Shown piece by piece: positions 18,540 through 36,448 of a stretch of DNA of 36,448 bases. The translations under genes were made by a program, and so were the position numbers. The DNA comes from Bacteroidota bacterium. GTDB taxonomy: Bacteria; Bacteroidota; Bacteroidia; NS11-12g; UBA955. A model generated the notes under the pieces. The model was not told the origin of the DNA and did no database searches. It saw only the letters and a list, made by a program, of their open reading frames with translations. The number at the start of each line of letters is the position of its first letter. Positions within the stretch are counted from its first letter, which is position 1. Location of the stretch: contig CANFXY010000008.1 of assembly GCA_947451105.1 (NCBI GenBank), forward strand, positions 1 to 36,448. Reading direction: 5' to 3'.

Positions 18540-20975
18540 ATGGAAATTGATCTGAAAGCTGGTGTATTAACCAAGGGCTTAAATCAAGCCATAGTTTCAA
18601 ATACCAAAGAATGCGCCCACTGCGGTTTGCCATGCGACGAGCATGTTGTCCTTGAATCTGATCTTTCTTTTTGTTGCTCTGGTTGCGCTGCCGTTTTTAC
18701 CCTATTAAACGACAGCAATATGTGCCGCTATTATGAAGACGGTAAAGGTCTCACGCCAGAATCAACGGAGCTTGGTGGGTTAGACTTTTTAGACGAGGCT
18801 GAAACAGCGGATAAATTCAAAATCTTTAGCCAAGGAGACACCGTTCAATACAAATTTAGAATCCCAGGAATGCACTGCAATTCCTGTATCTATTTACTTG
18901 AACGTTTGGATAGGTTAAACCCATCTGTACTTTCTTCTAGGGTCGACTTTTTTAATAAAGAATTGATCGTTACGGTCAAAAATGGTCCCAAGGTTCTGTC
19001 GAGTCTTGTCACTTTATTGTTTAGTCTAGGTTACAAACCAGACCTTACTTTATCGAATAACTCAGGCGCCAACAAAAGTAAATTTTCTCCCCGGGCCATC
19101 AAAATTGGCATAGCTGGTTTTTGCTTCGGCAACATCATGATGCTCAGTTTCCCTGAATACCTAGGCTTGTCGCTCGATTCCTCAAGCGCTGCGTTAAAGC
19201 ATTGGTTCGATTACATCAGTTTGGCCCTCTCATTACCCGTTTTGTTTTATTGTTCTTCTGAATTCTTCGAGAGTTCTTACAAAGCCATCAAAACAAGAAC
19301 TTTGAACATCGACTTGCCAATCACCCTAGCCATAGTTGCTGCATTCGGAAGAAGTTTATACGAGCTGTTTGTGATGAACCACTCTGGTTATTTTGATAGC
19401 ATGACGGGTATCGTGTTTCTGTTGTTAACGGGTAGGTATTTCCAAGACTTGAGTTACCATTCGTTGACCTTCGACCGCGATTACCGTTCCTACTTCCCAT
19501 TGTCCGCGCGCTTAATGGTCAATGGCACGTCTCAAGTTGTAAATATCTCTAAGCTTCAAGAAAACGACACCATAGAATTGCGCAATTCAGAGCTGCTTCC
19601 TGCCGATGCAATTCTAAGCTCTGGAATGGTAACAGTCGACTACAGTTTTATTACGGGTGAATCAAAACCAGTTGCGGTTCAAGAAGGTGAAAAGGTATAT
19701 GCTGGAGCGGTTATTAATGGCCGTTCCGCACAATTTAAATTGCTGGGCTCTACAGACAATAGCCGCTTGGTTAAATTATGGGCCATAGAAAAAGACAAAT
19801 CAGAAGTCGACAATTCATTAACTGAAAAGTTGAACTACTACTTTACCCTTGGTCTGTTATTGGTTGGTGCTTTTGCTTTTATTTACCAATACAATGTGAA
19901 TGGTTTGGAAGAGGCATTTAAATCGCTAACCAGCGTGCTCATTGTTGCTTGCCCTTGTATCTTATTGTTGGCTACTACTTTTGCCAATGGCCATTTGTTA
20001 AGAACCTTGAAAAACAATGGCATGTTCGTGAAAAACAAAAACACCTTGAGCCAAATGGCCAAGTGTGACACCTTTGTTTTTGATAAAACCGGCACCCTTA
20101 CGGACAATAAAGCATTTGAAGTTGACAATAAAACAACGCTTAACGCGGAAGAACTGAACATGTTTGGCTTCCTTTGCCACCAATCGGTTCACCCATACAG
20201 TGTGGCCATAGCCCATGCGTTTTATAAAGTTAATTTTCAATTAGACGCCTACACCGATTTTACAGGTAAAGGTCTTCAAGGTTTAATCAATTTAAACCGA
20301 ATTAAATTGGGCTCTGCACATTTCTTAAAACAAGAACAGCGCAATATAGGAGAGGGGCAAAGTGCCATTCATGTCGAAATTAACGGCGTGTACAAAGGCA
20401 GTTTCTTGCTTACCCACAGAATAAGACCTGAAACCAATTCGGTTTTGCTCGACTTGAAATTACAAGGTTATTCATTGTATTTGTCTAGTGGCGACAACGA
20501 ACTCAATCCAGAGATAAACCATTCGGTATTTGAAGAAACCTTGATCAAGCAACAACCTGAAGACAAGGTGTCTTTGGTTAAAAGTTTAAAAACCCAAGGC
20601 AAGGTGGTTTGCATGGCAGGTGATGGATTAAACGATGCACCTGCGCTGAAAGAAGCCGATGTGGCGGTCTCTGTGGCTGACCACGAAAATTCATTCTTTC
20701 CTGCCTGTGACGTTTTGTTAACCGCAAATGCGTTAGGCAATTTACCTTCACTAATGCAAATGGTAAAAGCAGCAAAATGGGTGGTGATCGTAAGCTTTGC
20801 TTTTTCTCTTATTTACAATGTTATTGGATTGTACTTTGCAATTACCGCACAATTGTCGCCTCTTACAGCTGCCATTTTGATGCCTAGTAGCAGCATCTCT
20901 ATGTTGATCATTACCTGGGTAATGACCAATGTGATGGCCAAATTGATCATAAAAAAAGAACAAATTACACCGTAG
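18540..20975 (+). CDS. ccoI: heavy-metal (Cu) translocating P-type ATPase of the CcoI/FixI type
   Basis: 811 aa; Cys-rich N-terminus CAHCGLPC...FCCSGCAAVF, HMA motif GMHCNSC, TGES, ACPC, DKTGT, HP locus and GDGLNDAPALKEADVAV; adjacent to cco genes. Confidence 0.93.
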   Translation: MEIDLKAGVLTKGLNQAIVSNTKECAHCGLPCDEHVVLESDLSFCCSGCAAVFTLLNDSNMCRYYEDGKGLTPESTELGGLDFLDEAETADKFKIFSQGDTVQYKFRIPGMHCNSCIYLLERLDRLNPSVLSSRVDFFNKELIVTVKNGPKVLSSLVTLLFSLGYKPDLTLSNNSGANKSKFSPRAIKIGIAGFCFGNIMMLSFPEYLGLSLDSSSAALKHWFDYISLALSLPVLFYCSSEFFESSYKAIKTRTLNIDLPITLAIVAAFGRSLYELFVMNHSGYFDSMTGIVFLLLTGRYFQDLSYHSLTFDRDYRSYFPLSARLMVNGTSQVVNISKLQENDTIELRNSELLPADAILSSGMVTVDYSFITGESKPVAVQEGEKVYAGAVINGRSAQFKLLGSTDNSRLVKLWAIEKDKSEVDNSLTEKLNYYFTLGLLLVGAFAFIYQYNVNGLEEAFKSLTSVLIVACPCILLLATTFANGHLLRTLKNNGMFVKNKNTLSQMAKCDTFVFDKTGTLTDNKAFEVDNKTTLNAEELNMFGFLCHQSVHPYSVAIAHAFYKVNFQLDAYTDFTGKGLQGLINLNRIKLGSAHFLKQEQRNIGEGQSAIHVEINGVYKGSFLLTHRIRPETNSVLLDLKLQGYSLYLSSGDNELNPEINHSVFEETLIKQQPEDKVSLVKSLKTQGKVVCMAGDGLNDAPALKEADVAVSVADHENSFFPACDVLLTANALGNLPSLMQMVKAAKWVVIVSFAFSLIYNVIGLYFAITAQLSPLTAAILMPSSSISMLIITWVMTNVMAKLIIKKEQITP

Positions 20976-21020
20976 TTTAACCGCCTTTAGAAGTAGTCGT
21001 AAGCGCATAAATTAAGTAGA

Positions 21021-21048
21021 AGGCACATCCGAAGGGATGTGCTTTTTT
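21021..21048 (+). terminator. rho-independent terminator after ccoI
   Basis: GCACATCC (21023-21030) - GAAG loop - GGATGTGC (21035-21042) followed by TTTTTT. Confidence 0.88.
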
Positions 21049-21301
21049 ATATCTTCGAATGTCTATTGACTTGCTTTACAGCATTCAAATTTTAGGATAA
21101 TAAATTAGATGACGCCGCTTAGTTCTTTTAGAGCCAGAAGGCGAATACTGTGAATCTTGTAATTGGTTTATTGTTTTGAGACATTCTTGCTAAAACATTT
21201 TAATAAAAATTAATCTTCAGTGGTATAGCCATTTGTGCGTTTAGAAACAGTGTTTTCCAATTTTAAATACCGATATTTTTTGTACCATACAAGGCGAATA
21301 A

Positions 21302-21367
21302 CTGACGAGCGTCAGTTCAGAACATGATTCAGGTCATCGATGTAAAAAACGCATCTAAATACTTTTG
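21302..21367 (+). promoter_or_regulatory. cco operon promoter with tandem FNR/FixK-like boxes
   Basis: CTGAC-GAGC-GTCAG at 21302-21315; ATGAT-TCAG-GTCAT at 21324-21337; -7 element TACTTTTG at 21360-21367. Confidence 0.65.
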
Positions 21368-21371
21368 AACC

Positions 21372-21539
21372 ATGGAAATCATGATGCTTTTAATCGGCGC
21401 CAGTATGGTATTAGCCTTATTCTTTTTAATCATGTTTGTCCGTGCCGGAAAGCAAGGGCAGTTCCGCGACACCTACACCCCATCGGTTCGAATTTTATTC
21501 GAGGATGAAGAAACAGAAAATTCCAAAATTTCAAAATAA
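21372..21539 (+). CDS. ccoS: cbb3-type cytochrome oxidase assembly protein CcoS
   Basis: Manual translation: MEIMMLLIGASMVLALFFLIMFVRAGKQGQFRDTYTPSVRILFEDEETENSKISK*; short single-TM CcoS-like protein before ccoNO. Too short for the supplied ORF track. Confidence 0.87.
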   Translation: MEIMMLLIGASMVLALFFLIMFVRAGKQGQFRDTYTPSVRILFEDEETENSKISK

Positions 21540-21545
21540 ACAGAT

Positions 21546-23681
21546 ATGAATAAAGAAACCTTCCATTATGACAACAAAATCGCGAAATGGTTTGCCTATG
21601 CGACTATGCTATGGTCGCTTGTGGGCATGCTTGTTGGATTACTCGCAGCATTTCAGCTTGTATTTCCGGTATTAAACTTAGACTTGCCTCAAACGAGTTT
21701 TGGTCGCATTAGACCCGTTCACACCAACGCCATCATCTTCGCTTTCGTAGGTAATGGTATTTTTATGGGTGTATACTACTCTTTGCAACGTTTGTGCAAA
21801 GCGCGTATGTTTAGCGATGCCTTGAGTAAAATCCATTTCTGGGGTTGGCAATTAATTATTGTTCTTGCCGCAGTTACTTTACTTGCCGGATATACCACAG
21901 GTAAAGAATACGCAGAGTTAGAATGGCCAATCGACATCTTAATTGCACTTATTTGGGTGGTGTTTGGATGGAATATGTTTGGAACCATTTTAAAACGCAG
22001 AGAACGTCATTTGTATGTTGCCATTTGGTTTTACATCGCAACCTTCGTTACCGTTGCGGTATTGCACATTGTCAATTCATTCGAATTGCCATTTAGCTGG
22101 ATGAAATCTTATAGTTTCTACGCTGGTATGCAAGATGCCTTGGTGCAATGGTGGTATGGCCACAACGCAGTAGCATTTTTCTTAACCACGCCTTACCTTG
22201 GTTTGATGTACTACTTCTTGCCTAAAGCTGCTGACAGACCGGTATACTCTTACAGATTGTCAATTATCCACTTCTGGGCCTTGATATTCTTATACATCTG
22301 GGCTGGTCCTCACCACTTGTTGTATACCTCATTGCCTGATTGGGCTCAATCTTTAGGGGTTGTGTTCTCTATAATGTTGATTGCTCCAAGTTGGGGTGGT
22401 ATGATCAACGGTTTGTTAACCCTTAGAGGTGTATGGGATAAAGTTAGAGAAGACGTGGTGTTGAAGTTTATGGTCGTTGCAGTAACTGCTTACGGTATGG
22501 CAACTTTCGAAGGTCCAATGCTTTCTTTCAAAAACGTTAACGCCATTGCCCACTTTACCGATTGGATTGTTGCACACGTGCACGTTGGTGCTTTGGGTTG
22601 GAACGGTTTCTTAACCTTCGGTATCTTATATTGGTTAATTCCTCGAATTTTCAAAACAGATCTATACAGCAAAAGCATGGCCAATACCCACTTCTGGTTA
22701 GGTACACTTGGCATTCTTTTATACGCAATCCCTATGTACTGGGCTGGTTGGACACAAAGTTTAATGTGGAAAGAGTTTACGCCAGACGGAACATTGAAAT
22801 ACCAATTCCTTGAAACGGTTGTTCAATTAAAACCTTTCTACTTGTTGCGCTCTATTGGTGGTACTTTGTATTTCTTCGGTGCAATCTTAATGGTATACAA
22901 TTTAATTAAAACCATTCGCGCCGGTAAAGCGGTTGATGATGAAGCTGCAGAAGCTGCACCATTGTCTGACAACTACGAACCTCATCATACAGAGCACTGG
23001 CACCGTTGGGTTGAAAGAAGACCTGTTCAATTGTTGGTGTTGTCATTGGTTGTTATTTTAATTGGTGGAGCGGTTGAGTTTATTCCATCGTTCTTAATTA
23101 AAAGCAATGTGCCGACCATCAGCAGTGTTAAACCATACACACCTCTTGAATTGCAAGGCAGAGACATCTACATCCGCGAAGGTTGTTATACTTGCCACTC
23201 TCAAATGGTTCGTCCTTTTAGAAGTGAAACTGCAAGATATGGTGAATACTCTAAAGCTGGAGAGTTTGTATACGACCATCCATTCCAATGGGGCAGTAAA
23301 CGTACGGGTCCAGACTTAGCAAGAGAAGGTACTCAAAAAATCAGAAAACCAAACTCTTGGCACTTCAACCACATGTACGAGCCGCAGTCCATCTCCCCAG
23401 GTTCTATCATGCCGCGTTACACTTGGTTGTTTGAAAATGATATCGATATGGATATCACTGAGGCAAAAATCAAAGCCATGCAAACGCTTGGTGTGCCTTA
23501 CGAACAAGGCTACGAGAAAGAAGCCAACAAAGATTTAATGAAACAAGCCAACGAAATTGTTGCTGATCTACAAAAGGAAAACATCAAAGCAATGCCTCAA
23601 AAAGAAATTATTGCCTTGATCGCTTACCTACAAAGATTGGGAACTGATATCAGCGCTGAACCTACAAACACTCAAAAATAA
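21546..23681 (+). CDS. ccoNO: cbb3-type cytochrome c oxidase, fused subunits I and II (CcoN-CcoO)
   Basis: 711 aa; haem-copper His motifs RPVHTNAIIFAFVGNG, WWYGHNAVAFFLT, GPHHLLY, HVHVGALGWNG; the C-terminal part has a single CYTCH and GPDLAREG...SIMPRYTWLF of CcoO. Confidence 0.95.
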   Translation: MNKETFHYDNKIAKWFAYATMLWSLVGMLVGLLAAFQLVFPVLNLDLPQTSFGRIRPVHTNAIIFAFVGNGIFMGVYYSLQRLCKARMFSDALSKIHFWGWQLIIVLAAVTLLAGYTTGKEYAELEWPIDILIALIWVVFGWNMFGTILKRRERHLYVAIWFYIATFVTVAVLHIVNSFELPFSWMKSYSFYAGMQDALVQWWYGHNAVAFFLTTPYLGLMYYFLPKAADRPVYSYRLSIIHFWALIFLYIWAGPHHLLYTSLPDWAQSLGVVFSIMLIAPSWGGMINGLLTLRGVWDKVREDVVLKFMVVAVTAYGMATFEGPMLSFKNVNAIAHFTDWIVAHVHVGALGWNGFLTFGILYWLIPRIFKTDLYSKSMANTHFWLGTLGILLYAIPMYWAGWTQSLMWKEFTPDGTLKYQFLETVVQLKPFYLLRSIGGTLYFFGAILMVYNLIKTIRAGKAVDDEAAEAAPLSDNYEPHHTEHWHRWVERRPVQLLVLSLVVILIGGAVEFIPSFLIKSNVPTISSVKPYTPLELQGRDIYIREGCYTCHSQMVRPFRSETARYGEYSKAGEFVYDHPFQWGSKRTGPDLAREGTQKIRKPNSWHFNHMYEPQSISPGSIMPRYTWLFENDIDMDITEAKIKAMQTLGVPYEQGYEKEANKDLMKQANEIVADLQKENIKAMPQKEIIALIAYLQRLGTDISAEPTNTQK

Positions 23682-23685
23682 ACCT

Positions 23686-23856
23686 ATGAAATTCATCCAT
23701 TATTTAGAGAACATATCGGGTATAAGTATTTACCCATTGACATCACTACTTATATTTTTTATCTTTTTTGTCGCCCTACTTTGGTTCGTTCTTAAAACAG
23801 ATAAACAGTATTTAAAAGAAATAGAACAAATCCCTTTCGATAACAACAAGCAATAA
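23686..23856 (+). CDS. ccoQ: CcoQ-like small membrane subunit
   Basis: Manual translation: MKFIHYLENISGISIYPLTSLLIFFIFFVALLWFVLKTDKQYLKEIEQIPFDNNKQ*; one TM, positioned between ccoNO and ccoP. Missing from the ORF track. Confidence 0.78.
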   Translation: MKFIHYLENISGISIYPLTSLLIFFIFFVALLWFVLKTDKQYLKEIEQIPFDNNKQ

Positions 23857-23858
23857 TT

Positions 23859-25007
23859 ATGATGAGAACAATCAAATCAATAACCTTCGTCATCGCGACC
23901 CTTATATCTTTCAATGCGTATTCATTAAGTCCAGCCCCTACTAGTGAATCAATTGGAAGCAATCCACTTTTCATAGCCATGGGCACTCTTGCCGCTGTTT
24001 TGTTAATGGTTATTATTATTTTATCTGGTGTTTTAAGAACAGCCGTTAAAACAAAAATTCGTGAAATTATTTCAAATAAAGGTACAAAAGCACTTATGCT
24101 CATCATGATGCTTTTTGCCTCTGGAAGTTCATTTGCTCAAACTGCCGCACCAGCTGTGACTGAAAGCATATATGAATCCAGCCCAATTGCAGGGATGCAC
24201 CCGCTTGGATTCTTTTCATTGTTTCTTGTTCTGTTGCTTGAATTGTTTGTCATCCTTTGGTTGTGTTTGGTCATTCTTAGAATTATCGTAAAACGCGAAG
24301 CGGTGGCATCGGAAAAAGCAGGTGAAAAAGTTAACAAAGAATCTTTCTTAAGCAATTTCGTTTCTCGAAAATTGTTAGGGGTTAAACCTGTAGAAAGCGA
24401 TAAAGATGTAATGCTCGACCACGATTATGATGGCATCAAAGAATTGGACAACGATTTGCCACCATGGTGGAAATACGGCTTCTATTTGACCATTGTTTCA
24501 GGGATCATTTATCTTTTCAGTTACCACGTAACCCACAACTCTAAATCGAGCTTAGAAGAATACGAATACGAAATGGCTGAAGCGGAAAAAAGTGTTAATG
24601 CATACAAAGCAACGCTTGCCTCTAATGTTGACGAATCCAATGCTACATTCACTGGTAATATTGATGCCGGTAAAGCTACTTTTGTTAAGAACTGTGCAGT
24701 ATGCCACGGCAATGAAGGCCAAGGTTTGGTAGGACCAAACTTCACCGACAAATACTGGGTATATGGCAACAAAGCCGGCGACATGTTTAAAATAGTTAAA
24801 AATGGTACCAACAAAGGAATGAAAGCTTGGAAAGATGAGCTGAGTCCTGTTGATATCCAAAACGTAATAAGCTATATCCACACCTTGCAAGGAACAACAC
24901 CTGCAAATCCGAAAGCGCCAGATGGTGTATTGCTTGAAGATGAAGTTGCTGCGGGCGGTGACTCTACAAGTGTAAAAGATTCTGTGAAAGTAATTGAAGT
25001 AAAATAA
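23859..25007 (+). CDS. ccoP: cbb3-type cytochrome c oxidase subunit III (single CxxCH)
   Basis: 382 aa; DHDYDGIKELDNDLPPWWKYGFYLTI is the CcoP N-terminal domain; one haem-c site CAVCHG; several predicted N-terminal TM segments. Confidence 0.92.
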   Translation: MMRTIKSITFVIATLISFNAYSLSPAPTSESIGSNPLFIAMGTLAAVLLMVIIILSGVLRTAVKTKIREIISNKGTKALMLIMMLFASGSSFAQTAAPAVTESIYESSPIAGMHPLGFFSLFLVLLLELFVILWLCLVILRIIVKREAVASEKAGEKVNKESFLSNFVSRKLLGVKPVESDKDVMLDHDYDGIKELDNDLPPWWKYGFYLTIVSGIIYLFSYHVTHNSKSSLEEYEYEMAEAEKSVNAYKATLASNVDESNATFTGNIDAGKATFVKNCAVCHGNEGQGLVGPNFTDKYWVYGNKAGDMFKIVKNGTNKGMKAWKDELSPVDIQNVISYIHTLQGTTPANPKAPDGVLLEDEVAAGGDSTSVKDSVKVIEVK

Positions 25008-26425
25008 TGAGTTCTGACCCCTTCGAACTTGAGCACGTTGACCAATCTTACAGAGACTCTATAGGAACTATAGGCGCCGATGGAAAACGCAAATGGGTTT
25101 TCCCTTGGCAACCTAAAGGTAAGTTATACAACTACAGAACCGCCTTATCTATTGTGTATTTGTTGGTCCTGTTTGGTTTGCCCTTCTTGAAATACAATGG
25201 GCACCCCATGTTTCTTTTTAATGTTTTAGAAAGAAAATTCATTCTCTTCGGTGCCATTTTTTGGCCGCAAGACTTGGTGATATTTGGCGTGGCCATGATT
25301 ACTTTTGTGCTCTTTGTTGTTCTATTTACCGTTGCTTTTGGTCGTGTGTTTTGCGGATGGGTTTGCCCCCAAACGGTTTTTCTCGAAATGGTGTTTCGCA
25401 AAATTGAATACTGGATAGACGGTTCTGCCGCCAATCAAGTAAAACTAAAAAACAGCCCTTGGACCCGAGAGAAAATAGTTAAAAGAACCCTGAAACATTC
25501 CATTTTCTTTCTCTTCGCTTTTCTAATCTCCAATACTTTCTTGGCGTATATGATCAGCGTTGATGGATTGTACAAGATAATCACTGAACCTGTTTCTGAA
25601 CATGCCGTTGGCTTAACACTCATACTAATTTTTAGCGGTGTTTACTACTTTGTGTTTGCTTGGTTTAGAGAACAGGTTTGCCTTATTGCATGTCCTTATG
25701 GCAGATTGCAAGGCGTGATGCTCGATAAGAATTCTATCGTTGTGGCTTACGATTACAAACGCGGAGAGCCAAGAGGCCATATCCACAAAGGCGAAGACCC
25801 CGCGTCTAAAGGCGATTGCATCGATTGTGGAATGTGCGTAAAAGTTTGTCCAACCGCTATTGATATCCGCAACGGTACCCAGTTGGAGTGCGTAAACTGT
25901 ACCGCCTGTATTGATGCCTGCGACGAAGTGATGGAAAAAGTACAAAAGCCAAAAAGGTTGATTAAGTTTACCAGCGAAAGTGCCATCTCGACAGGGATTT
26001 CACACCTTTTTAACTGGAGAACCCGTGCTTACAGTGTGGTATTAATTTTGCTGCTTGGTATACTTATAACTTTGATTGCCAGTAGGAAAAATATCGACAC
26101 CACCATACTCCGGTCGCCTGGACTTTTATTCCAACAACCAGACAGCACGCATTACTCAAACTTGTTCCTGATCAAAACCATCAATAAGACCTATTACGAT
26201 GCTAATCTTAAAATTGTTGTTATAGAACCATCAGAAGGTGTTGTGAAAAGTATTGGCCGCGACATTAAAATCAAAGCCGAGTCAAAATACGATGGTCAGT
26301 TCTTCTTAGTTATACCAAGCAGTCAGATGACTGGCCACAAAACCAAAGTGGTCTTGGATATTTACCGAGACGGTGAAAAAATAGAGCGTGTTAAAACCAA
26401 TTTCCTAGGCCCAATTTATCAATAA
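25007..26425 (+). CDS. ccoG: cytochrome c oxidase accessory protein CcoG (FixG-like ferredoxin)
   Basis: 472 aa; CGWVCPQTVFLEMVFRKIEYWIDG, CLIACPYGRLQGVMLD and CIDCGMCVKVCPTAIDIRNGTQLECVNCTACIDACDEVM 2x[4Fe-4S] motifs. Confidence 0.95.
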   Translation: MSSDPFELEHVDQSYRDSIGTIGADGKRKWVFPWQPKGKLYNYRTALSIVYLLVLFGLPFLKYNGHPMFLFNVLERKFILFGAIFWPQDLVIFGVAMITFVLFVVLFTVAFGRVFCGWVCPQTVFLEMVFRKIEYWIDGSAANQVKLKNSPWTREKIVKRTLKHSIFFLFAFLISNTFLAYMISVDGLYKIITEPVSEHAVGLTLILIFSGVYYFVFAWFREQVCLIACPYGRLQGVMLDKNSIVVAYDYKRGEPRGHIHKGEDPASKGDCIDCGMCVKVCPTAIDIRNGTQLECVNCTACIDACDEVMEKVQKPKRLIKFTSESAISTGISHLFNWRTRAYSVVLILLLGILITLIASRKNIDTTILRSPGLLFQQPDSTHYSNLFLIKTINKTYYDANLKIVVIEPSEGVVKSIGRDIKIKAESKYDGQFFLVIPSSQMTGHKTKVVLDIYRDGEKIERVKTNFLGPIYQ

Positions 26426-26845
26426 ATGAATTTCAAATATTTTATCATAGCCATCTACCTTGTTTTTGTTGCCCTCATTGTTACAATGGTTTTTAAAAGT
26501 TGTGGTCAGAACATTGACCTTGAAACGAAAAACTACTACGCTGAAGAGCTTCAGTACCAAACGAAAATTGATGCATTAAAAAAAGGCAATCAATATGCCG
26601 ATTCATTTGTTGTTTACGAGGATGCTGGCATGGTTAAAGTAAAACAAGCCAAATCTTTGCTTTGTGATTCTATAAAATTGGTGTTCAAAAAGCCAGACAA
26701 TGCGAAAGCGGACAGAAGCTTTGTTTTTAAAGGGTCAGTGATTGAACCCATTTTGAAATCTAATTTTGTGCCCGGCGTATACGGATTGAATATTTACTTG
26801 TACTCAAACGGCGTTTACCAAATCGAGAAAAAAATAAAACTGTAA
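26426..26845 (+). CDS. ccoH: FixH family protein
   Basis: 139 aa; N-terminal TM then CGQNIDLETKNYYAEELQYQTKIDALKKGNQY typical of FixH; operon context. Confidence 0.83.
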   Translation: MNFKYFIIAIYLVFVALIVTMVFKSCGQNIDLETKNYYAEELQYQTKIDALKKGNQYADSFVVYEDAGMVKVKQAKSLLCDSIKLVFKKPDNAKADRSFVFKGSVIEPILKSNFVPGVYGLNIYLYSNGVYQIEKKIKL

Positions 26846-26846
26846 G

Positions 26847-27542
26847 GTGTTAATCAACGGGCTAATATTTGGATTGATCTCAACCCTGCACTGCGCAGGG
26901 ATGTGCGGTCCTTTGGCCTTTTATATCCCTTCGCAAGTAAAGGGAGACAAACGTGTTTTTGCCATACTATACCAAGTGGGCAGGATTGCAATTTATGTTT
27001 CTATCGGCCTGATGGTTTATCTACTTGGTATGTCGTTCTCGTTTTTCAAACTGCAACAAACCCTATCCATTGTTATGGGTAGTTTAATGGTTTTGTACGT
27101 TTTATGGCCCTTGTTGAAATTGCCGAAACTTAAACTATTCTCCAATTTCCAAGGAACTGTGCTTAAAAAAATATCTGCTGCCATAGGTGCAAACAGCAAC
27201 AAATCAGCGCTAGGCTTGGGGATGATGAATGGCCTTTTGCCTTGCGGTGCTATTTATATCGCTGCTCTGTATTGTGCAAGTTTCAACCAAGTTTCGGATG
27301 CCATAATTTACATGCTCTTGTTCGGAGTTGGAACCATGCCGGTGTTCATCGCTGCTTGGATGTTGCTCTCTAAGCAGTTCTCATTTAAAGTAAAACGATT
27401 TACCTATTTATACAAAGCTTTGCCTTTAATTGTAGGTGTTTTGATGATATTAAGAGGTGCAAACCTCGGAATTCCTTACCTTAGCCCCGAATTGGAAAAT
27501 AGCAATCAAACGGTTACTGTAAAAAATTGCTGTAAACATTAA
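26847..27542 (+). CDS. SafE/TauE-family membrane protein of cbb3 loci
   Basis: 231 aa, GTG start; GLISTLHCAGMCGPLAFYIP and GMMNGLLPCGAIYIAALYC, typical cco-linked SafE-like protein. Confidence 0.87.
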   Translation: MLINGLIFGLISTLHCAGMCGPLAFYIPSQVKGDKRVFAILYQVGRIAIYVSIGLMVYLLGMSFSFFKLQQTLSIVMGSLMVLYVLWPLLKLPKLKLFSNFQGTVLKKISAAIGANSNKSALGLGMMNGLLPCGAIYIAALYCASFNQVSDAIIYMLLFGVGTMPVFIAAWMLLSKQFSFKVKRFTYLYKALPLIVGVLMILRGANLGIPYLSPELENSNQTVTVKNCCKH

Positions 27543-30592: not shown

Positions 30593-31282
30593 TTATAATA
30601 GGTTAAGTCGCTTGTAAACAGATTCTCTATATGTTTTCCCAATGGGAATAAACTTGTCGTAATACGAAATGCAATTGTCTTCAATGTTGTTTATTCGGTC
30701 TATACGGATAATAAATGAACGGTGAACGCGCATAAATTCATTGGAGGCAAACTTTTGTTCTATCGAATGCATGGTGGAGTGCACTATGAATTTTTCTTTT
30801 TCAGTATTCAAGGTTACATAATCGCCCAACCCTTCTATCCATAGCACATCCGACTTGTTAACCTTTACAATGATATTTCCTTTTTTAATGAAAATTATAT
30901 CGTTTTCAATTTTGTCAATATTGTGTTTCTCAAACATGGCTTGAGCTTTCGCCACTGCATTTAAAAATCTAGGCAAGGCAACGGGTTTTACAAGATAGTC
31001 TAGCACATTGTGCTCGTAAGCTTCCAATGCGAATTCTGGGTGTGAAGTGGTTAAAACAATCAGCGGGTGTGGGTGCTTCATGGCTTTAATAAATTCAATG
31101 CCATTGAGCTCGGGCATTTCTATGTCTAAGAAGATTAGATCAATAGGGTTGCTTGCAATATAGGAAAGGGCTTGTAGGGCGTTGTTAAATGTTTTTACCA
31201 GCGTTATTTGTTCTGCCTTTAATACACATTGTTGTGTTGCTAGTAAGGCTATTTCATTGTCGTCTATTATGATGGCTTTCAT
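30593..31282 (-). CDS. LytTR-family response regulator
   Basis: 229 aa; receiver AIIIDDNEIALLATQQ...DLIFLDIEMPELNGIEFI...DYLVKPV and LytTR domain FIKKGNIIVKVNKSDVLWIEGLGDYVTL...FMRVHRSFIIRIDRI. Confidence 0.94.
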   Translation of the reverse strand: MKAIIIDDNEIALLATQQCVLKAEQITLVKTFNNALQALSYIASNPIDLIFLDIEMPELNGIEFIKAMKHPHPLIVLTTSHPEFALEAYEHNVLDYLVKPVALPRFLNAVAKAQAMFEKHNIDKIENDIIFIKKGNIIVKVNKSDVLWIEGLGDYVTLNTEKEKFIVHSTMHSIEQKFASNEFMRVHRSFIIRIDRINNIEDNCISYYDKFIPIGKTYRESVYKRLNLL

Positions 31283-31299
31283 AATTGTTAAATTTCTTT

Positions 31300-34278
31300 T
31301 TAAGGTTGTAGTTCTCTAATTTTATTTTCTAATTCTGGATAAAATACGTCCAACATGCTGCGCATAATATCCACTTGTTTCATTAGTTCTGATTTGTCTA
31401 TTCCATTTGTGGTGTCTATAGATAATTGCCCCAACAAGTCGCTGATTTTTTGTAAGCCAAAGATATCAAAGGATGATTTTACTTTGTGGCACAAATCTCT
31501 GAGTTTTTGTATGTCATTATATTCAATGGCATGCTCGATGTTTTGCAATTCATCTGGGATCTGTTTCAAAAACAATTGAATCATTTCCATTTCAAAATCA
31601 CTGTTGCCCGCAGATAGTTCCTTCAAATAGTTCATGTTTACTTTCAAGGCGGCGGGTTCATCCATTTGGTCTAATTGAATTCCCTCTGTTGTGTTGCCTA
31701 TTAATGCCTTTGAAAGCTTTTTAATGATTTTGTGGTAAAGTGTATCTGGATTAAATGGTTTCGAAATAAAATCATTCATGCCAGCGGCTATGCATTTTTC
31801 TTTTTCTCCAACGATGGAGTGGGCCGTCATTGCTATTATAGGGGTGTTGAGTCTTAGTGTATTTCGAATGATCTTAGTGGTTTGATAGCCATCCAATTCA
31901 GGCATTTGAATGTCCATTAAAATCAGGTCGTAATTTTTGACCTTCAACATGTCTAAACCTATCTGTCCATTGATGGCCAATTCAACATCAAAATCAAAGT
32001 TGTTTAAGACATTTTTTGCCAATTTTTGGTTCAAATAATTGTCTTCTATTACCAAGATAATTGGTTTTCTAATGTGCGCGCTTCTTTGGTTTTGGTATTT
32101 CTCTTTAAGCGTTTCGTTTTTAATTCCTATATCAAGCTTTAAAACAAAATGAAATTCTGAGCCGATACCTTCTTTTGATTTTAATTCCAATTCGCCACCC
32201 ATCAATTGGATCAGGTTTTTTGAAATGCTCAAGCCAAGTCCGGTGCCTTCATACTTGCGGTTGATGGCATTGTTCACCTGGCTAAAACGCTCAAATATTT
32301 TTTCTTTCTTTTCGTCTTGTATCCCAATACCTGTGTCCTTAACTTTAAATAGTATTTGGTGGTAAGTGCTTCCGCTGTTTAAGAGCGTGGCAGAAAATTC
32401 TACCGATCCATTTTCGGTAAACTTAATGGCATTGCCAACCAAATTGATTAATATTTGATTCAAACGCAGGGCGTCACACATCAAGAATTGTGGAATATTG
32501 GGGTCGAATTGGAATGAGAAACTCAAGTTTTTTTGATTGGCACTGATTTTTAATAAATCATACACATTCTTCATAATCAATTGGACATCAGAAGAACTGG
32601 TTTCTATCGTAACTACCCCGGATTCAATTTTTGAAAAGTCTAGGATGTCATTGATAATTGACAGTAAGTTTTCTCCCGCAACCTTAACAGAGTTGGCATA
32701 GTCTTTTTGTAAATGGTTTAGCCCCGTATGCGACAACAATTCTGTAAATCCAATAATGGCATTCATTGGCGTTCTGATCTCATGGCTCATATTGGCTAAG
32801 AATTGGTCTTTTGAAATAACCGATTCTTCCGCTTGTTTTTTGGCTTTTAATAGTTCCTCTTCCGCAAGTTTACGTTCTATAAAGGCCCCAATTTGTAAGC
32901 CAGTACTCTCAAACATCTGTATAATATTCACATCTGTTTTTTTGGATTTAGAACTAAAATATTGCATTACTCCAATGACCTCGTTGTTAAACAACACTGG
33001 AAATAGGAGGGAAGATTTAATTTTATAGGTATTAGAAATGGTCTTTTCTATTAGGCCATTTTCAAATCCCATGTCAAATATCCATATCGGACTTTTTTTC
33101 TGCCACACGCGGCCAGACAGCGATTCTCCAACATTGATTTGTTGCTGTTGTATGAAGCTTTTTAATTCATCATTATGCGGATAAGTGAATTGATAATAGG
33201 TATGCGCAATGAGTTTGTTGTCGTCTTTTTTTGTTCTCCAAAAAACGCCAATGTCCCACTCCAAGCGGTAGCAAATTTGCTCCGCAATATGTAAAACAGA
33301 TGTATTGATGCCGTCGTTTTCACTCAGAATTGAAATAAGCCTAGCCTCTAAAGTCATGCGCTCTTGGGCAGATTTCTTTTCTGTGATGTCTTGTTGGATG
33401 GCCATATATTGGTAGGTCTTGCCCTTCTTGTCGAGGAAAGGGATAATGCTACAATCGACCCAAAAATAATTGCCGTTTTTATCTTTGTTTCTAATCTCCC
33501 CATGCCACAATTCACCATGGCTAATGCTTTCCCACATTTCTTCAAAGAAGATTTGGCTGTGGTGGCCTGAGTTGAATATGCTGTAGGCTTGACCCAACAG
33601 TTCTTCTTTAATGTAGCCCGATGATTTGCAAAACTTATCGTTTACAAATTTGATATACCCGTTGCGGTCGGCAATGGCAACGCCAGACGATTGGTCTAGG
33701 GCAAACTTATACGCCGCTAGGTCTATTTCAGTTTGGTTGACACGCTCGTTGAGCAATTGGTTGAGCTCATTTTGAAGATTCTTGTTTTGCTTTCTAAGGT
33801 TTAATAAAATCGTAATCTGCTTAGAAAGGCTGTAAAGACCTTCAATTTGTTCTCTGTTTAATTGCTTTGCTTTGGTGTCAATCACGTTGATTGTTCCTAT
33901 TTTGAAACCTTCAACACTCGTAATAGGTACACCGCCAAAAAATCTAAAATTTGGATGCCCAATTACCATTGGGTTTTTCACCAATTCTGAATCCAAATAG
34001 GCATCTGGAATTTCGAAGTATTCTTTGTTTGAAATAAGATCAAAACAAAAATCAAAGTCACCACGCAGGTCATAGATATTGAGTCCTACACTCGATTTTA
34101 TTTGGTGTTGTTTTCCGTCGAAAATGGAAATGATTGCAACCTGGGTTTGGCATAAATGAGCAGCCATTTGAACGACTGCATCGGTTTCAAATTCTGGTAT
34201 TTTTTCCAAAATATTGAAATTGATGAGCGCCTCTAATCGTTCTCTCTCATTGTTAGTTAAATTGAGTCGCTCTTTCAT
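31300..34278 (-). CDS. hybrid sensor histidine kinase (GAF-PAS-GAF-HisKA-HATPase-REC-HPt)
   Basis: 992 aa; GAF-like N-terminus, PAS YIKFVNDKFCKSSGYIKEELLGQ, HisKA FLANMSHEIRTPMNAIIGFTELL, REC ILVIEDNYLNQKLAKNVL...LILMDIQMPELDGYQ, HPt RDLCHKVKSSFDIFGL. Confidence 0.93.
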   Translation of the reverse strand: MKERLNLTNNERERLEALINFNILEKIPEFETDAVVQMAAHLCQTQVAIISIFDGKQHQIKSSVGLNIYDLRGDFDFCFDLISNKEYFEIPDAYLDSELVKNPMVIGHPNFRFFGGVPITSVEGFKIGTINVIDTKAKQLNREQIEGLYSLSKQITILLNLRKQNKNLQNELNQLLNERVNQTEIDLAAYKFALDQSSGVAIADRNGYIKFVNDKFCKSSGYIKEELLGQAYSIFNSGHHSQIFFEEMWESISHGELWHGEIRNKDKNGNYFWVDCSIIPFLDKKGKTYQYMAIQQDITEKKSAQERMTLEARLISILSENDGINTSVLHIAEQICYRLEWDIGVFWRTKKDDNKLIAHTYYQFTYPHNDELKSFIQQQQINVGESLSGRVWQKKSPIWIFDMGFENGLIEKTISNTYKIKSSLLFPVLFNNEVIGVMQYFSSKSKKTDVNIIQMFESTGLQIGAFIERKLAEEELLKAKKQAEESVISKDQFLANMSHEIRTPMNAIIGFTELLSHTGLNHLQKDYANSVKVAGENLLSIINDILDFSKIESGVVTIETSSSDVQLIMKNVYDLLKISANQKNLSFSFQFDPNIPQFLMCDALRLNQILINLVGNAIKFTENGSVEFSATLLNSGSTYHQILFKVKDTGIGIQDEKKEKIFERFSQVNNAINRKYEGTGLGLSISKNLIQLMGGELELKSKEGIGSEFHFVLKLDIGIKNETLKEKYQNQRSAHIRKPIILVIEDNYLNQKLAKNVLNNFDFDVELAINGQIGLDMLKVKNYDLILMDIQMPELDGYQTTKIIRNTLRLNTPIIAMTAHSIVGEKEKCIAAGMNDFISKPFNPDTLYHKIIKKLSKALIGNTTEGIQLDQMDEPAALKVNMNYLKELSAGNSDFEMEMIQLFLKQIPDELQNIEHAIEYNDIQKLRDLCHKVKSSFDIFGLQKISDLLGQLSIDTTNGIDKSELMKQVDIMRSMLDVFYPELENKIRELQP

Positions 34279-34693: not shown

Positions 34694-36448
34694 ATGAATA
34701 AACTCTACCACATCAAAAACTACTTTAAGGCGGCATTGGCTGTTCTTGTTGTAGGTTTCTGTGCGCCTGCTTATGCTCAGTTGTCTGGGACTTACACCAT
34801 CAACAACGCTGCAACCACAGGCGGAACCAACTTTGCCACTTGGCTTGATTTTAGAAACGCTATCACCACTGGTGGTGTAAGCGGGCCTGTAACAGTCAAT
34901 GTATTAACAGACAATACCGAAAGTTCACAAATCAATTTAGGTCCTATTACTGGTACTTCATCAACCAACACGGTTACCATCAACGGTAATGGTAAGTTTT
35001 TATCTGTTGCTGTTGCTGACGCTGTTATCTTGTTGAGCGGTGCTGACTATTTTACTTTCGACAAAGTTACAGTTAGAAACACAACGACAAGCCAATACGC
35101 TCAAGGTTACAGATTGTACAACGGTTCAGACTACAACACCATTTCTAATGGTACGATTGAATTCACATTAATGGCTACTGCAACTACTGCAGGTGGAGCT
35201 TATGTTGCGTTTTCAAGTTCTGCAACCTCAATGACTGCTACAAGTACAACTGGTCATGGTAACTTCTGTACCATCAGCAACAACTTGATGCGTACAACAA
35301 ACGCGAATAGTCCAGGTCCAGCTTATGCAATCACTTGCACTGGTAATACTTCAACGTATACCTCTACTGCACAAAACAACACCATCATTGGCAACACCAT
35401 TCAAAACTTCTACTACATGGCTATTTACATGTTCTACACGAATGGTAACCAAGTTTTGAACAACGATATCTCTCGTGTAAACTCTAGCATTTACAATTCA
35501 AGTGCTACTTTATATGGTATCTACTCATATTATTCTTATGCAGCTAACCGTCCAACTAAATTAGATGGCAACACTTTGCACGACTGGCCTTGTGTAGGTG
35601 CTACAACTTCTTCTGCTCCTTCAAGCATCTATGCATTCTACACATTGTATAACTATGGTAACGCTAGCTACAGATTCTCTGTGAGCAACAACAATATTTT
35701 GAGATTAAGAGCTACTACCTATTTATACCTAGGTTATAACTTCTACAACTACTTCTTCGATTTGATTGGAAATACAGCTAATGACGCAGACGTAACTACT
35801 GGTACAGCTGTTTATTATTTCTATGGTTGGTACAACGGTTATTCATACAGTTCATACCGTTACAACAGCAATACCATCCAAAACTGCGATGGTGGCTACT
35901 ACTGGTATGGTATTCAAAACTACTACCCTCAAACTCCAGCAGGTGTTCAAGAGATCAATGACAACATTATCCAAAACAACGTAGGTGCATACTACTATGC
36001 TTACCGCATATACTCTTACTATGCTCAATATGCTAATGCTACTTACCAAATTGACATGAAGAGAAACCAAATTAAGAATAACGGTACTGTATACTATTAT
36101 ACATATAACATTTATTGCTACTATTATGGTTGGTACAACATCGAAGACAACATCATCGATGGCAACACCACCAACTACTATTATATGTATAACATTTATG
36201 CCTATTACTATGGCAACTACAAAGTTTCAAGAAACATTATCCGCAACAACAAAGCAATCGCAGGTAACGTAGGTTATATGTACAACATTTATGCGTACTA
36301 CAACTACAACTTAGAAATCTTGAGCAACTTAATTTATGACAACATTGGTTACTATGGTACTTATGGAATCTATGCTTACAATGGACAAACCGGTTCTTGG
36401 CCAGCTGAGATCCGTCAAAACACCATTAAAGTAAATGGTTCTCAATCA
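34694..36448 (+). CDS. large secreted Tyr/Asn-rich repeat protein, likely right-handed parallel beta-helix (C-terminus beyond window)
   Basis: Manual translation of 585 open codons from ATG 34694: signal peptide MNKLYHIKNYFKAALAVLVVGFCAPAYAQ, then SGTYTINNAATTGGTNFATWLDFRNAITTGGVSGPVTVNVLTDN, then repeats such as YYYMYNIYAYYYGNYKVSRNIIRNN. Open at the window edge, so absent from the ORF track. Confidence 0.9.
   Translation, partial: MNKLYHIKNYFKAALAVLVVGFCAPAYAQLSGTYTINNAATTGGTNFATWLDFRNAITTGGVSGPVTVNVLTDNTESSQINLGPITGTSSTNTVTINGNGKFLSVAVADAVILLSGADYFTFDKVTVRNTTTSQYAQGYRLYNGSDYNTISNGTIEFTLMATATTAGGAYVAFSSSATSMTATSTTGHGNFCTISNNLMRTTNANSPGPAYAITCTGNTSTYTSTAQNNTIIGNTIQNFYYMAIYMFYTNGNQVLNNDISRVNSSIYNSSATLYGIYSYYSYAANRPTKLDGNTLHDWPCVGATTSSAPSSIYAFYTLYNYGNASYRFSVSNNNILRLRATTYLYLGYNFYNYFFDLIGNTANDADVTTGTAVYYFYGWYNGYSYSSYRYNSNTIQNCDGGYYWYGIQNYYPQTPAGVQEINDNIIQNNVGAYYYAYRIYSYYAQYANATYQIDMKRNQIKNNGTVYYYTYNIYCYYYGWYNIEDNIIDGNTTNYYYMYNIYAYYYGNYKVSRNIIRNNKAIAGNVGYMYNIYAYYNYNLEILSNLIYDNIGYYGTYGIYAYNGQTGSWPAEIRQNTIKVNGSQS
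35819..36396 (+). repeat. in-frame degenerate protein repeats (Tyr-rich strand plus N-I-I-x-x-N strand)
   Basis: Units of about 28-34 aa: YYYAYRIYSYYAQYANATYQIDMKRNQIKNNGTV / YYYTYNIYCYYYGWYNIEDNIIDGNTTN / YYYMYNIYAYYYGNYKVSRNIIRNNKAIAGNVG / YMYNIYAYYNYNLEILSNLIYDNIGYYG. Confidence 0.8.

Follow-up and report, generated by a model that had tools for sequence, protein, structure and literature searches.

Tyrosine-Rich Gene at a Contig Edge

The gene at the right edge of the window (the whole stretch of 36,448 nucleotides of a Bacteroidota bacterium that was analyzed here) raises the question of what function a predicted secreted protein might derive from a region in which almost every fourth residue is a tyrosine. 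The open reading frame begins with ATG and is open at its 3′ end, and since the window represents an entire contig (G000:C8) of a 2.76 Mb assembly (86% complete, 196 contigs), the contig end truncates the gene (Table 1). Tyrosine accounts for 14.4% of the 585 visible residues and for 24% of the last 217. The original prediction had counted, by hand, about 52 Tyr in about 200 residues, which proved exact for the 200 consecutive residues richest in Tyr, beginning at residue 374; the same number is found in the 217 residues encoded from position 35800 onward. The three repeat segments that it quoted are all present in the protein, and the motif Y-x-hydrophobic/G-Y/Q-x-Y/F/L/G-Y occurs nine times, whereas shuffling the residues of this Tyr-rich stretch 5000 times gave 0.32 occurrences on average and never more than 5. 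All other ORFs of the window contain 2–6.5% Tyr, and those of at least 200 aa reach at most 16 Tyr per 200 residues. Charged residues are very scarce in the Tyr-rich region (K 2.3%, E 1.9%, D 2.8%). A canonical signal peptide, KNYFKAALAVLVVGFCAPAYA|Q, was read by eye at residues 1–28.

For the last visible 149 bp of the gene, the remaining contigs of the genome offered no convincing counterpart, and plasmid records gave no match. Contig G000:C69 carries a sorting tail at its edge, which was considered as the missing gene end and rejected, as the next ORFs read as TatD and enoyl-CoA hydratase; these match a different paralogue locus (G006, G009:C194, G028), and the tail therefore probably stems from a paralogue. 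The arrangement of a paralogue locus followed by enoyl-CoA hydratase and TatD (by eye) recurs across genera (L033, L035, L047, L120), and the tail of G000:C69 fits it. In one related genome (L109–L111; G009:C37, C42, C194) the downstream half lies on one contig, and two others, which end inside paralogues of the gene, each contain 116 bp identical to a part of it. Near-identical stretches of paralogues seem to fragment the assemblies, and recombination among the copies is a possibility. Contigs of several other genus members also end inside the Tyr-rich gene.

Table 1. Positions in the window of the Tyr-rich gene, its parts and the neighboring regulatory genes.
Feature	Position	Strand	Basis or remark
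LytTR-type response regulator adjoining kinase	30593..31285	-	domain search
GAF-PAS-GAF hybrid histidine kinase with receiver and Hpt domains, divergent neighbor	31300..34278	-	domain search
Tyr-rich T9SS-type beta-helix protein gene	34694..36448	+	585 codons visible, 3′ end lost at contig edge
Signal peptide, residues 1–28, predicted cleavage APAYA|Q	34694..34777	+	read from sequence; AF2 helix at residues 6–23
N-terminal cap and first Tyr-poor beta-helix coils, residues 29–239	34778..35410	+	alignment, AF2 model
Tyr-ladder part of beta-helix, residues 240–585, 11 coils in window	35411..36448	+	AF2 model, coil register
Tyr strand coil 1, anchor I244	35411..35437	+	coil alignment
Tyr strand coil 2, anchor I276	35507..35533	+	coil alignment
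Tyr strand coil 3, anchor F315	35624..35650	+	coil alignment
Tyr strand coil 4, anchor G347	35720..35746	+	coil alignment
Tyr strand coil 5, anchor W379	35816..35842	+	coil alignment
Tyr strand coil 6, anchor I407	35900..35926	+	coil alignment
Tyr strand coil 7, anchor I439	35996..36022	+	coil alignment
Tyr strand coil 8, anchor I473	36098..36124	+	coil alignment
Tyr strand coil 9, anchor I501	36182..36208	+	coil alignment
Tyr strand coil 10, anchor I532	36275..36301	+	coil alignment
Tyr strand coil 11, anchor I559	36356..36382	+	coil alignment

Predicted Fold and Tyrosine Register

From a shallow input alignment (six rows, taken from the window and related loci), AlphaFold returned an ordered, beta-helix-like model of the window protein, an all-beta solenoid whose coils each comprise three strands (pLDDT 81, pTM 0.84), which is the outcome that had been anticipated. 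In this model the predicted parallel strands are arranged in triplets, each coil running from the Tyr strand to strand 2, an Asn turn and strand 3, and invariant asparagines (N229, N257, N293, N333, N360, N393, N491, N545, N576) line up as a ladder in the turn that leads into strand 3. The three strands per coil, the Asn between strands 2 and 3 and the coil consensus are reminiscent of PbH1 proteins (TIGR03804, PF13229/PF05048), from which the family is set apart by its fixed Tyr columns, up to five in number. The TIGR03804 score (19.9 bits) lies marginally above the cut-off of 19.45, that of Pfam Beta_helix PF13229 (11.9) below its cut-off of 25.9; no Pfam family covers the beta-helix part, and a sequence search of the PDB gave no relatives at E up to 1. 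The top PDB matches found with Foldseek are parallel beta-helices, namely PL6 alginate lyase (E 2.4e-6), GH136 lacto-N-biosidase, chondroitinase B and tailspikes, with PfbA ranking lower, but the low query-normalized TM-scores (about 0.2–0.4; rmsd ∼8 Å or more) mean that they back the fold class only and not a shared function. The model of a longer relative (L065; mean pLDDT 57) shows the helix to about residue 620 and is confident there only. The N-terminal half of the full-length protein is predicted to be a right-handed parallel beta-helix, whose Tyr strand would, by analogy with known PbH1 proteins, correspond to PB1. PB1 is the face that holds the substrate in polysaccharide-active PbH1 members.

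Alignment of the coils on an anchor residue, with the anchors set by hand on the window sequence, yielded the register Y(-4)-phi-Y(-2)-G-I(0)-Y(+1)-x-Y(+3)-Y(+4) on strand 1. The tyrosines therefore do fall in columns along one strand, as the original prediction of Tyr ladders had proposed, and the repeats it described are real; however, the anchors are spaced by 27–39 residues rather than 28–34, and the register begins not at about position 35800 but already around residue 240 (nucleotide 35411). Over 24 sequences and 11 coils, Tyr occupies position -4 in 57%, -2 in 83%, +1 in 72%, +3 in 61% and +4 in 74% of cases, while -1 is G/A and -3 and 0 are mostly hydrophobic. Where Tyr is absent from -4, +1, +3 and +4, 58–91% of the residues are polar, which suggests that these columns are exposed, whereas the residues replacing it at -2 are hydrophobic about half the time and this column may face inward; the predicted orientation of the side chains rests on this substitution pattern. 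Within four residues of the coil anchors, the family alignment holds no conserved D, E, K, R or H, the conserved D/R/H being located at least nine residues away, and catalysis on the Tyr strand is therefore unlikely.

Conservation of Tyrosine Among Relatives

Computed against 23 relatives over the aligned region, retention is highest for Tyr (0.67), followed by Asn (0.61) and Gly (0.52). At the same time, conserved Tyr codons differ between TAC and TAT at 29 of 62 positions in comparison to G009:C137 and at 18 of 55 in comparison to G009:C194, and between coils of the gene 109 Tyr codons agree and 107 differ (n = 216). The codon choice is thus scrambled while Tyr is retained, which indicates that the amino acid and not the DNA has been kept. 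No DNA tandem array of coil length was found in the gene, and this, together with the scrambled codons, rules out recent tandem duplication or slippage as the source of the repeats; the coils are old, with the amino acid held in place.

Phenylalanine, the usual substitute of Tyr in general protein evolution, makes up just 7% of the replacements, which instead favor Asn (19%, a share somewhat inflated by the general abundance of Asn in this region) as well as Gly, Ser, Ala, Gln, and Thr. Judging from these substitutions, the hydroxyl group or polarity of Tyr seems to matter, and because relatives keep the rows of Tyr, the face looks like a selected surface.

Distribution and Domain Architecture of the Family

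Protein searches gave matches in 55 of 59 genomes (the window’s own and relatives), many of them best over the N-terminal part. With a profile of the Tyr-rich part, hits at E up to 1e-10 were obtained in the order (42 of 67 genomes), in a class sample (32 of 293) and in a phylum sample (5 of 299), whereby each sample includes the window’s genome and the phylum sample repeats two class genomes. Many family genomes encode several copies, and in one of them (L036, G026:C18:165000-184000) three Tyr-rich beta-helix genes lie in tandem on one strand.

Complete copies are ∼1500–1600 aa long and consist of a signal peptide, the beta-helix (∼600–700 aa), a PKD part with six domain hits and, at the C-terminus, a sorting tail of T9SS type A. 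Por_Secre_tail (PF18962) was identified in G009:C137, G013:C278, and G028:C22, the first of which also matches TIGR04183, and PKD domains in all three; past the helix, Tyr falls to about 3.5% in complete PKD-bearing relatives. In this architecture they resemble T9SS type A cargo with PKD domains (PF18962/TIGR04183, PF18911), although their beta-helix head matches no Pfam family. The T9SS C-terminal domain that the original prediction had suggested looking for is thus present in the complete relatives, the window copy itself being cut before this point. A shorter paralogue of 801 aa, encoded on contig G000:C28 of the window’s genome, is without PKD domains; the YPNP-type stretch at its C-terminus looks by eye like a sorting tail, but received no Pfam score. 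The genome encodes T9SS machinery (SprA_N, E 7.8e-166); with the solenoid model and the right-handed beta-helices among the best PDB matches, this supports the earlier view of a secreted Bacteroidota-type beta-helix protein.

Relatives elsewhere in the class (e.g., G129:C1, L124) share the sequence of the N-terminal cap (seen in G129) and a YGIY coil core with Tyr in 75% at -2 and 76% at +1, while their partner domains differ by eye. Their columns -4, +3, and +4 are mostly without Tyr (20–31%, versus 55, 56, and 82% here over the first seven coils), all of these percentages coming from alignments built on a profile, toward which they are biased, rather than from a phylogenetic reconstruction. 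Since the class relatives keep the YGIY core only, the three extra columns look like additions in the window’s lineage to a shared theme. Tyr content ranges from 16 to 34 per 200 residues in other class families and from 28 to 53 in complete helices of the window’s family. One of the other class families includes an open frame of 9439 codons with a Tyr-rich YGIY-type helix (L098/L123, G185:C76; 34 Tyr per 200).

The open-licence literature on T9SS or beta-helix proteins rich in Tyr yielded no description of the family. BamA of Bacteroidota also has an extracellular loop rich in Tyr (EL3), which is unrelated and whose function is unclear (PMC12578637).

Possible Functions of the Tyrosine Face

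The export signal, the solenoid head and the PKD domains and T9SS tail of the relatives point to a surface binding protein. We consider that the protein has about an even chance of being a surface adhesin exported by the T9SS, with a non-catalytic Tyr binding face along its beta-helix. It would be delivered to the cell surface or the extracellular space, where strand 1 of each coil would set up to five Tyr in register and the stacking of coils would join them into one continuous face; going by the domain order in full-length relatives, PKD domains would follow the helix head as a plausible spacer, ahead of the C-terminal T9SS tail. Lying along the solenoid, the Tyr face could then hold a long extended partner, e.g., a polysaccharide or matrix chain. 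If the ligand were a glycan, the protein would represent a type of adhesin without a Pfam family.

Arrays of stacked tyrosines are not without precedent. It had been stated that no named family carries such a ladder, which holds insofar as no Pfam family covers the helix, but this overlooks both the tyrosine ladder of ice nucleation proteins (INPs) and the Tyr-lined groove of the Streptococcus pneumoniae adhesin PfbA. PfbA (PMC3718772; 3zpp, 4mr0) is likewise a surface beta-helix with a groove partly lined by Tyr (Y378, Y401, Y441, Y443), no evident catalytic machinery and no detectable lyase activity (PMC3718772). Unlike the protein studied here, however, it has an electropositive groove with few Tyr and is a cell-wall-anchored Gram-positive protein, and it bound none of the glycosaminoglycans tested (PMC3718772), which counts against the analogy in terms of binding. 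The original prediction was to be doubted if homologues showed the composition to be common and functionally assigned; it is indeed common to the whole lineage, yet without an assigned function. The face is repeated and apparently selected, and natural relatives with two or with up to five Tyr columns offer a built-in comparison.

INPs are also beta-solenoids in which Tyr stack coil on coil (PMC10727499, PMC9247515), and tyrosine-ladder dimer models have been published for them (PMC9247515, PMC10727499). By analogy, the Tyr face might be a self-association surface through which solenoids pair or form sheets by Tyr–Tyr contacts, giving rise to fibers or a surface layer. A face wider than that of INPs, the scarcity of charged residues, and several paralogues per genome that could co-assemble are all in line with this idea. 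But INPs have coils of 16 residues with one ladder and TxT arrays, whereas the coils here span 27–39 residues with several Tyr columns and no coil-length array in the DNA, and a head on a tether would fit the PKD domains and sorting tail better than a free fiber. We tend to favor binding over self-association, which we regard as unlikely, albeit worth keeping in mind: the tyrosine-ladder principle of INPs would then have a second instance, with a wider face. With about as much reservation, it may be speculated that the multi-column sheet is a purpose-made material interface, expanded stepwise from the two-Tyr YGIY core, that would serve side-by-side assembly, Tyr cross-linking or charge relay.

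A dedicated function might also be lacking altogether, if Tyr, being a good strand residue, had expanded in this lineage by ordinary structural or compositional drift. The class-wide presence of the YGIY core at -2 and +1 indicates that part of the motif is structural, and the Tyr content is graded between the families. We nevertheless find drift slightly harder still to defend, as no residue is better retained than Tyr for all the scrambling of its codons, and Asn takes its place much more often than Phe does; Tyr is also kept across genera in the extra columns -4, +3, and +4 and is not abundant in the other ORFs of the window.

The dense and regular spacing of Tyr and the predicted extracellular location would in principle suit a matrix protein that is cross-linked upon oxidation, through dityrosine or DOPA links between adjacent faces, but this seems improbable: a search confined to tyrosinase-family genes found none in the window’s genome and one in just 1 of 39 genomes, and no oxidase was recognized by eye in the ORFs flanking the relatives’ genes. 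Least credible of all is an enzyme that degrades polysaccharides, as a lyase or hydrolase, in a cleft lined by aromatic residues, despite PL6 and GH136 enzymes being the best fold matches, given that strand 1 carries no conserved acidic or basic residue that could be catalytic and that the PDB holds no sequence match at E up to 1.

The preferred reading of a non-catalytic binding face is accompanied by a genomic setting that includes a divergently oriented hybrid histidine kinase (Table 1). Because a similar kinase gene is found divergent from the relative in G013:C3, too, the kinase is possibly a regulator of the Tyr-rich gene. Other paralogues adjoin a Crp-like regulator or are flanked by ORFs that were assigned by eye to ComEC and TatD/enoyl-CoA hydratase. 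Further upstream in the window (18540–27542), a cluster resembling that of a cbb3-type cytochrome oxidase was recognized by eye, including a copper P-type ATPase, oxidase subunits and assembly proteins.
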